Positions 37,374-39,253 of a stretch of DNA of 64,000 bases are shown in pieces; the first letter of the stretch is position 1, and every line of letters begins with the position of its first letter. The notes under the pieces are model-generated. The model was not told the origin of the DNA, searched no databases, and saw only the letters and a list, made by a program, of their open reading frames with translations. Source of the stretch: Veillonellaceae bacterium (GTDB lineage Bacteria; Bacillota; Negativicutes; JAAYSF01); NCBI GenBank assembly GCA_012523975.1, contig JAAYSF010000065.1, positions 62,001-126,000 of the forward strand, written 5' to 3'. Made by a program: the position numbers and the translations under genes.

Positions 37374-37871
37374 ATGGATACATGCCGTTATGCGTTAATA
37401 ATGGAAAATTCAATAAAACAAGAAGTTATGCTTCGCTTGCAAAGTGGCCCTCTGCAATTGAAATCTCTTTTAGAAATGATTTCAACCTGCCAAGAAGCAT
37501 TTATAGATATTCTTCAGAAAACATTTGATAAAAATAATTTAAGTACATATTTTCAACAAGATGCTATACAAACATTATTTGAAACTATTAGGCTGGAGAA
37601 CAAGTTTGAGCTAAATAGTAACGATACAACTGAATTGGCAATGAACCTCTATATGACTCTTTCAACATTATCGAGCATTATCGAAAGGTCACTGCAATTT
37701 TATCGTCAAGCCGCCAATAACAGTGCTTATGAATATGAAAAAATATTTTACAATTCGCTTGCTGAGCAAAAAAAAGTCCTTAAACGCCGGATTGATTCAG
37801 CGTTACGAATAGTTTACAACAGTCTCTGGTCACAAGTTGGTTTTGCGCCTTTTTTATTTGGAAAAGAATGA
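37374..37871 (+). CDS. Hypothetical all-helical protein
   Basis: 165 residues, predicted almost wholly alpha-helical, without signal peptide or membrane segment. Helical blocks such as TELAMNLYMTLSTLSSIIERS and EYEKIFYNSLAEQKKVLKRR recall four-helix bundles, but I see no clear di-iron motif. GAGGTGATT precedes ATG 37374. It stands between a terminator and the recombinase region. No family recognised. Confidence 0.7.
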   Translation: MDTCRYALIMENSIKQEVMLRLQSGPLQLKSLLEMISTCQEAFIDILQKTFDKNNLSTYFQQDAIQTLFETIRLENKFELNSNDTTELAMNLYMTLSTLSSIIERSLQFYRQAANNSAYEYEKIFYNSLAEQKKVLKRRIDSALRIVYNSLWSQVGFAPFLFGKE

Positions 37872-38272
37872 TTGCTCAATGTCCGATAATATATATTATG
37901 TATACAAAAGTTATAGCCAAGCTACATTGGTCATCCGTAGAGTAGTAGAAAGGATCGGTTTTAAGCTGCAATATTTTCAACAATGTTGCAGCGCGACATC
38001 AACACAGTTATTTTTATAGACACAATAAACTACGAAATGAAGATTCTAGAAAATAGATAATTCGATTGAGTATCTAGCAAAGTGGAATACTAAAGCAAAT
38101 CTGTATAATAATCTGGATATTAAATGAAAATAAAACCTTACGACTGGAACATTCGCAAGTATCTACACCAGCTAAAAGAGTATAATTCTATTAAAAAAGT
38201 ATACTTTGTAACTAGCGATAATTTATAGTTATCACTAGTTGAGAGGAAAATTTGAGATAGGAGTCTATATTT
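37872..38272. other. 401-base intergenic stretch before the recombinase
   Basis: AT-rich with no convincing gene. It contains a hairpin GCTGCAA/TTGCAGC at 37965-37992 without T-tract, a 34-codon frame at 38124-38228 without ribosome binding site, and a dif-like inverted repeat at 38210-38240. The recombinase ribosome binding site is weak (GATAGGAG at about 38255). Confidence 0.6.
38210..38240. repeat. dif-like inverted repeat (candidate recombinase core or operator site)
   Basis: AACTAGCGATAA (38210-38221) and TTATCACTAGTT (38229-38240) are inverted 12-base arms with one mismatch, separated by the 7-base spacer TTTATAG. The inner ends ATAA/TTAT resemble Xer dif arms. It lies 32 bases before a tyrosine recombinase gene. 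It could also be an operator for autoregulation. No T-tract follows, so it is not a typical terminator. Confidence 0.5.
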
Positions 38273-39253
38273 ATGAGTAGCAATGACAAGTCTTTCGTTT
38301 TACGCAAAAATAATTTTATTCAAAACAACAATAAGCTTTCGATAAAGAGTAAAAAGCGTTTACAAAAATCTAAAGCTGATAATACATTGCGTGCATATGA
38401 ATCAGACTGGTTGGACTTTTATGACTGGTGCTCACACCATAATTTGCAATCGTTACCAGCGGAACCAGAAACGATTATTAATTATATTAATGATCTAGCC
38501 GACCATGCCAAAGCTAATACTATATCTCGACGGCTAAGCGCGATATCAGAAAATCATAAAGCTGCCGGGTATGTTGACGATAATCCATGTCGTGGCGGTC
38601 TCGTTAGAAATGCACTTGATGCAATTAAGCGCGAAAAAGGCACTATGCAACGTGGTAAAGCGCCTATCTTAATGGAAGATTTACAAAATATTGTTTCATT
38701 CTTTGATAGCACGGATATTGCTGGAATCCGGGATAAAGCCCTACTACTTACCGGTTTCATGGGAGCTTTTCGACGGTCTGAACTAGTCAAAATTGATATT
38801 GAAGACCTAACTTTCACTCGGGAAGGAGTAATCATTCTCGTTGAAAAATCTAAAGGCGATCAGGAAGGTCAAGGCGAACAAGTTGCTATTCCTTATAGCT
38901 CAGATCCTAATATATGTGCAGTCACCGCGTTAAAATATTGGATACACAGCGCTTTCTTAGATTCAGGCCCTCTATTCCGCCCAGTTAATAAATATAAACA
39001 GGTTAGAGATAGACGATTAAGCAATCAATCTGTAGCGCTAATAGTAAAGAAATATGCCGCGCTTGCTGGTTTTAATGCAGATAATTTCGCTGGACATAGT
39101 TTACGACGTGGTTTTGCAACAACTGCCGCTCAGTATGATGTTGACGAGCGCTCCATAATGCAACAAACGCGTCATAAATCAGAAAAAATGGTGCGTAGAT
39201 ACATAGAACAAGGTAATTTATTCAAAAATAATGCTTTGAATAAAATGTTTTAA
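38273..39253 (+). CDS. Tyrosine-type site-specific recombinase
   Basis: 326 residues: an N-terminal SAM-like core-binding domain (about 35-125) and a C-terminal catalytic domain. Catalytic residues are all present: Arg167 in FRRSEL, a Lys in EKSKGD, His275 and Arg278 in HSLRRG, His301 in RHKSEK and nucleophile Tyr310 in RRYIEQ. It is longer than XerC/D because of a basic N-terminal extension. No phage, transposon or plasmid genes lie nearby. It may be a domesticated integrase acting on the adjacent inverted repeat (inference). Confidence 0.93.
   Translation: MSSNDKSFVLRKNNFIQNNNKLSIKSKKRLQKSKADNTLRAYESDWLDFYDWCSHHNLQSLPAEPETIINYINDLADHAKANTISRRLSAISENHKAAGYVDDNPCRGGLVRNALDAIKREKGTMQRGKAPILMEDLQNIVSFFDSTDIAGIRDKALLLTGFMGAFRRSELVKIDIEDLTFTREGVIILVEKSKGDQEGQGEQVAIPYSSDPNICAVTALKYWIHSAFLDSGPLFRPVNKYKQVRDRRLSNQSVALIVKKYAALAGFNADNFAGHSLRRGFATTAAQYDVDERSIMQQTRHKSEKMVRRYIEQGNLFKNNALNKMF

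Follow-up and report, generated by a model that had tools for sequence, protein, structure and literature searches.

Organization of the locus

The window analysed here is a stretch of 64,000 nucleotides from a Veillonellaceae bacterium (assembly GCA_012523975.1, positions 62,001 to 126,000 of contig JAAYSF010000065.1), within which a gene for a single tyrosine recombinase is preceded by a 31-base palindrome and, further upstream, by a canonical dif (Table 1). The palindrome reads AACTAGCGATAA TTTATAG TTATCACTAGTT, its arms being complementary at 11 of 12 positions, and the ATG of the 326-aa ORF begins 32 bases after it. A first-pass annotation of this DNA had described just this inverted repeat, with a 7-base spacer, 32 bases ahead of a recombinase possessing all catalytic residues, and had seen no second copy in the window; the repeat is confirmed exactly, our search of the window agrees, and the catalytic positions R167, K194, H275, R278, H301 and Y310 are invariant in 25 aligned relatives. 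Nor did a search of the whole genome from which the window derives, allowing up to 3 mismatches, reveal any further copy of the site.

Table 1. Positions of the features discussed, numbered from the first base of the window.
Feature	Position	Strand	Remarks
Canonical XerCD-type dif (ATGTCCGATAATATATATTATGTATACA)	37879..37906	+	Contig positions 99879-99906; 3 mismatches to the search pattern
Spacer of 303 bp separating dif from the Cre-type site	37907..38209		The only listed ORF of at least 60 aa is the one overlapping dif (37837-38019)
Putative Cre/dif-like recombination site	38210..38240	+	Arms 38210-38221 and 38229-38240, centre 38222-38228 (TTTATAG); single-copy, conserved, arms covary
Single tyrosine recombinase, 326 aa, Cre-like	38273..39253	+	Phage_integrase and SAM-like domains; nearest solved structures are those of Cre

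Inverted repeats with at least 11 of 12 arm positions matching and a spacer of 6-8 bases number 13 in the window, whereas 100 simulated windows contained 0.9 on average. Since the window thus holds other inverted repeats of equal quality, the repeat structure alone proves little, and the site stands above chance because it is conserved, with covarying arms amid dissimilar flanks (see below). Another inverted repeat (GCTGCAA...TTGCAGC) is situated at about 37966-37993, between dif and the Cre-type site.

The recombinase and its kinship

The recombinase is 47-86% identical to its aligned relatives (76-86% to the closest ones). When a profile of the family was compared with solved structures in the PDB, Cre was the best match with 82 bits, followed by XerD (55.5), XerA (49) and XerH (21.6 bits, E 0.00092); the whole-family profile likewise gave Cre 104 bits versus 83 for XerD. 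An AlphaFold model of the protein (pLDDT 84.6, pTM 0.66) also resembled Cre best in fold (Z 25.0), ahead of XerA (18.8), XerH (18.7) and XerD (14.6), with an rmsd near 7 in the Cre rows that probably reflects domain orientation. Not all comparisons point the same way, as a profile built from SAR11 only favours XerD (70.7 bits versus 50.4 for Cre) and a single-sequence BLAST of the window protein does the same (62 versus 46 bits). On profile and fold we lean, without certainty, towards a Cre-like enzyme that is closer to Cre of P1 than to the Xer proteins.

None of the curated Xer models that matched the window protein had its cut-off met, whether for XerD (69.5 bits, cut-off 329.6), XerC (56.2, cut-off 335.15), XerS (52.2, cut-off 267) or the archaeal XerA (56, cut-off 220), and no XerH model was among the matches. 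In the phylogenetic tree, the SAR11 sequences form the sister group of the main Negativicutes clade (support 99/95), a mixed group holding plasmid genes stands apart (98/93), and the f6 genomes branch separately. The tree also joined P1 Cre to a plasmid relative (92/95), a placement on which we do not rely because the program warns of long branches.

Conservation of the site among Negativicutes

Of 60 related genomes, 30 carry a close relative of the recombinase, called at E below 1e-80, and both numbers include the genome of the window. Carriers named in a scan of the genome collection, from Sporomusa, Anaerospora, Selenomonas, Mitsuokella, Megasphaera, Veillonella and Dialister, identify the class as Negativicutes. 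The site is present in 29 of the 30 recombinase-bearing relatives, G008 being the one in which none was found. It lies at most about 125 bp upstream of the recombinase gene in 15 of the 30 and away from it, on another contig or kilobases off, in 14. Each of these site-bearing Negativicutes genomes has one full-quality site, with a single clear exception (G012).

Across 15 loci picked by a fixed 18-bp core, the flanks are only 32-35% identical. A scan that required the core bases GATAA/TTATC and left the outer arm bases free to vary gave the site from 89 of 126 loci, a total that includes gene loci with the site elsewhere. Among the 44 distinct sites, the seven outer positions of one arm are matched by their counterparts in the other in 267 of 308 cells, as compared to 182 on average and 208 at most when the arms were re-paired. 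The window and all 44 distinct sites share a 12-7-12 layout, with the proviso that only a 7-bp centre was sought. In several loci (L003, L006, L031, L032 and L118) a copy of the outer right arm of the site (7-8 of 8 positions) recurs at -43/-44 upstream. It follows the local arm variant, the summed best matches over 14 loci reaching 86 versus no more than 79 in 500 shuffles, and could possibly represent an accessory half-site about 44 bp upstream.

Three genomes show other arrangements. G012 possesses a second recombinase copy on another contig (G012:C13; L128, L208) with a different palindrome of its own, AAGTAACGATAA ATTATAA TTATCGTTACTT. G024 carries a perfect orphan site (G024:C6:84374; L120/L201) together with XerC, XerD and dif and without a Cre-like gene; the flank of this orphan resembles the start of a group II intron. 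G005 has a second, unlike palindrome besides the site. An integrated element was considered as the origin of this double site, but homology in a comparison with G035 and G042 did not reveal an insertion between the palindromes; the second palindrome adjoins an apparent integrase gene, and we draw no conclusion from this pair.

Position of the site at the replication terminus

Around the site in the window's contig, GC skew changes from positive on the left to negative on the right, and the maximum of the cumulative skew lies 1,050 bp from the site. The skew flips within 3.5 kb of the site in 6 of 8 genomes, the corresponding distances being 3,326 bp in G049, 139 bp in G018, 3,490 bp in G025, 38 bp in G029 and 1,503 bp in the SAR11 genome G092. 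In G035 the maximum is 35 kb off the site, and G030, where the gene is 80 kb away, shows no clear flip at the site.

The shorter arc from dnaA to the site spans 0.418-0.497 of the chromosome in all 19 genomes (9 Negativicutes and 10 SAR11) in which it was measured. Only genomes with dnaA and the site on one main contig were used, which left 9 of the 23 genomes of the Negativicutes set; a further dnaA search of 15 genomes contributed only G060. The SAR11 genomes G111, G109, G099, G093, G096, G105 and G084 were left out (dnaA on another contig or none), as was G094, and for G055 and G006, which have more than one contig, the main contig was taken as the chromosome. In G029 two copies of the gene are some 38 and 43 kb distant from the point where the skew flips, at which the site itself is found, indicating that the position of the site follows the terminus and not the gene. 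The site also provides a sharp terminus marker for these genomes.

These positions bear directly on whether the palindrome might instead be an operator by which the recombinase represses its own gene, a reading suggested by the short distance between site and gene in half of the Negativicutes and in 30/30 SAR11 loci, and by the extra half-site near -44 in several loci. An operator would need neither a fixed 7-bp centre nor a place at the terminus, and because the site is not beside the gene in 14/30 relatives and remains at the flip in G029, repression cannot be its main function; we regard the operator reading as very improbable, autoregulation remaining a role that the site may have in addition. 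Of the two branches proposed in the first-pass annotation, a self-acting Xer/Cre-type site (with dimer resolution among its possible uses) or an autoregulatory operator, dimer resolution is strongly supported, and the operator is not upheld as main function. Among the findings that would refute its proposal, the same annotation named poor conservation among orthologous loci and the absence of a second site anywhere. The former does not apply; the latter is true within a genome, yet a single copy per genome is just how a dimer-resolution site should look.

Coexistence with dif, XerC and XerD

The dif located 303 bp upstream of the Cre-type site was missing from the first-pass annotation. With a weight matrix built from the dif matches of the class, excluding those of G000 and G037 and one weak match of G020, it scores 32.1, whereas 20 simulated 64-kb windows gave no more than 12.7; since the matrix derives from matches of the pattern search, the two kinds of evidence are not fully independent. 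The window's genome also encodes an intact XerD (304 aa) and an intact XerC (306 aa), and therefore seems to hold both the old system and the one replacing it.

As XerC, XerD and dif are all kept, the Cre-type system may not be the one at work in this genome, and which of the two works there can only be inferred. It is conceivable, if rather doubtful, that dimers are resolved here by the XerCD/dif pair, intact proteins and a recognizable dif being at hand 303 bp away, with the Cre-type module as a redundant backup. Set against this, the dif has 3 mismatches to the pattern and a long branch (0.80) leads to the XerC of this genome, which together hint at relaxed constraint, whereas the Cre-like recombinase is intact and closely similar to its nearest relatives.

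Across the related genomes, the distribution of XerC and XerD was determined with the XerD model at E 1e-40, XerC being taken as its second strong match. The XerC+XerD pair is found in 23 of the 30 relatives without the Cre-like gene (G016 and G033 among them having a partial second match) versus only 4 of the 30 with it (G000, G001, G017 and G037); the remaining carriers have XerD alone (16/30) or neither protein (10/30). XerC and XerD both went unmatched in G049, G054 and G059, which fall with Veillonella in the tree. Canonical dif is similarly distributed, in 22/30 genomes without the Cre-like gene and 2/30 with it, the window's dif being one of the 2. These counts are uncorrected for shared ancestry.

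Other loci with a dif adjoining the module of gene and site are those of G037, Sporomusa silvacetica, S. ovata and Anaerospora hongkongensis, where it scores 34-44, and a degenerate dif (scores 19-21) does so in G001 and G017. As we read the coordinates, the module is on the same side of dif in 7/7 loci (5 clear, 2 degenerate), in two module orientations, and in all four genomes that have the three recombinases together, a dif or a degenerate form of it persists next to the module. In our reading, this adjacency represents a replacement caught in progress, for which the arrival of a plasmid at dif is one possible route. Genomes in which the two systems lie 0.3 kb apart allow them to be compared directly. 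In G037, an XerD-like ORF of 277 aa (G037:C41; L207, 6339-7133) is located directly upstream of the site.

The module in SAR11

Relatives of the recombinase, at 45-49% identity, are found in the Pelagibacteraceae, where 34 of 40 genomes encode one copy each; the six others showed no recombinase, and some of them may be incomplete. No match to the XerD model exceeded its cut-off in any of the 40 genomes, and at E 1e-10 34 of the 36 matches were to the same Cre-like gene. The site is found just upstream of the gene in 30/30 loci, and in ten genomes with the gene and dnaA on one main contig it lies roughly opposite dnaA (0.42-0.49). As judged from these sequences, SAR11 carries the same putative module, in a sister version of the Negativicutes one. 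Pelagibacter ubique was described by Carnoy and Roten (2009; PMC2731167) as lacking a dif/Xer system, and a Cre-type system would fill this gap.

Plasmid and viral relatives

Among plasmid records, 4,007 match the recombinase, the best with 48% identity, and plasmid genes are among its nearest relatives outside the two groups, from Alicyclobacillus, Paenibacillus and Sporosarcina (best of each 44-48% identical). In 6 of 8 plasmid loci (L211-L218) a similar palindrome occurs within about 1.1 kb upstream, three of these palindromes having a 6-bp centre and less perfect arms. Plasmid Cre-like relatives with such a palindrome are likely multimer resolution cassettes, and from a cassette of this kind the chromosomal system would probably have been derived, an origin that remains inferred.

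These relationships also raise the question of whether the module is merely an integrated plasmid or another selfish element that XerCD settled beside dif, the palindrome being its own resolution or attachment site without a role for the host. This reading would account for the closest outside relatives including plasmid genes, of which several come with a similar site, and for a dif adjoining the module in seven loci (two of them degenerate), always on the same side. Such an element would not be expected at the terminus, conserved for long in many families, nor where XerC and XerD are gone, and integration at dif would leave two copies of dif, whereas a single one is found beside the module. 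We consider this reading improbable as an account of the present role of the site; as a route of arrival, a selfish element is compatible with a function in dimer resolution.

A generic 22-base pattern is found in 9 viral contigs, two with a 32% identical recombinase, and the SAR11 site, sought in viral contigs, was present in none. That the palindrome is the site of a phase-variation invertase or a phage attachment site, as might be supposed because invertible switches, too, combine a tyrosine recombinase with an adjacent inverted repeat, can hardly be maintained in view of this result for the viral contigs and of the lack of a second site in the window or the genome.

A putative Cre-type system for chromosome dimer resolution

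Chromosome dimer resolution is near-universal, and versions that use a single recombinase are, to our knowledge, few (XerS, XerH, XerA and XerL). From what was observed of the sequence and its conservation, the number of copies, their place at the terminus, the distribution of the gene and the kinship in fold, we consider it highly probable that the repeat is the core site of such a system, operated by one Cre-type tyrosine recombinase; in other words, a single Cre-like enzyme very probably acts at the 31-base palindrome to separate chromosomes linked to each other in the course of replication. In the mechanism inferred, an odd number of crossovers would join the sister chromosomes, their two sites would be brought together at the terminus at division, two protomers of the same enzyme would bind the two near-identical 12-bp arms of each, and the resulting tetramer would exchange strands within the 7-bp centre, thereby returning two monomers. 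Homotypic binding, synapsis at division, strand exchange and the resolution itself are all inferred. In a precedent reported in PMC2731167, loxP has to be at the terminus for Cre/loxP to rescue a dif mutant of E. coli.

In the Negativicutes, the system would have taken over from XerCD/dif, with dif, XerC and XerD kept in the window's genome, XerD alone in other relatives and neither in still others. We slightly favour the combined proposal that Negativicutes genomes preserve these stages of takeover (dif and the Cre-type site with XerCD, XerD only, no XerCD) and that the enzyme may act without FtsK-gated activation, in which case dimer resolution would be controlled by position and translocation alone. 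The FtsK gamma domain is found in 21/21 genomes examined, and any role of FtsK is inferred. Single-recombinase dimer resolution is already known, and Smyshlyaev et al. (PMC8138268) suggest that in some taxa the place of Xer may be taken by class-specific recombinases; a literature search that did not extend to subscription-only papers returned none describing a dif in Negativicutes or SAR11. A Cre-type version in SAR11 and in Negativicutes of the gut, mouth and rumen would illustrate the displacement of a conserved cell-cycle system by a plasmid cassette.

Among characterized systems, Cre/loxP of phage P1 shares the single enzyme, the near-perfect palindromic arms and a site upstream of the gene (loxP is 416 bp upstream of cre in X03453), besides being the best match in profile and fold. 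The commonest arm, AACTTCCGATAA, matches loxP at 10 of 12 positions, whereas the window's own, AACTAGTGATAA, does so at only 8. Unlike lox, the present site is chromosomal and lies at the terminus, its layout is 12-7-12 instead of 13-8-13, and H301 of the window protein aligns with the active-site tryptophan of Cre.

XerCD/dif occupies the same chromosomal place, here 303 bp away, with the same function inferred, yet relies on two recombinases, two unlike half-sites and a 6-bp centre, and the window protein falls far short of the XerD cut-off. XerS/difSL of streptococci (PMC5357621) is likewise a single-recombinase system with its site beside the gene and at the terminus, but the centre of difSL is 11 bp long and its arms are unequal, and the XerS cut-off is again far from met. 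XerH/difH of Helicobacter and Campylobacter combines a single recombinase with a site near the gene and differs in the imperfect arms and 6-10 bp centre of difH and in the 21.6 bits that XerH scores with the family profile. XerL/dif of Legionellales (PMC9765430) is similar in its single recombinase, uninterrupted inverted-repeat arms and terminus site, in its occurrence in bacteria reported to be without dif/Xer and in that gene and site can be far apart, whereas here the two form a close module in half of the relatives; this likeness is architectural, without sequence comparison. Lastly, three of the related genomes (G039, G056 and G057 of f12/f15; L202, L203 and L204) have neither XerCD nor the Cre-like gene and possess other, mutually similar tyrosine recombinases of 332-335 aa, which may constitute yet another single-recombinase system.
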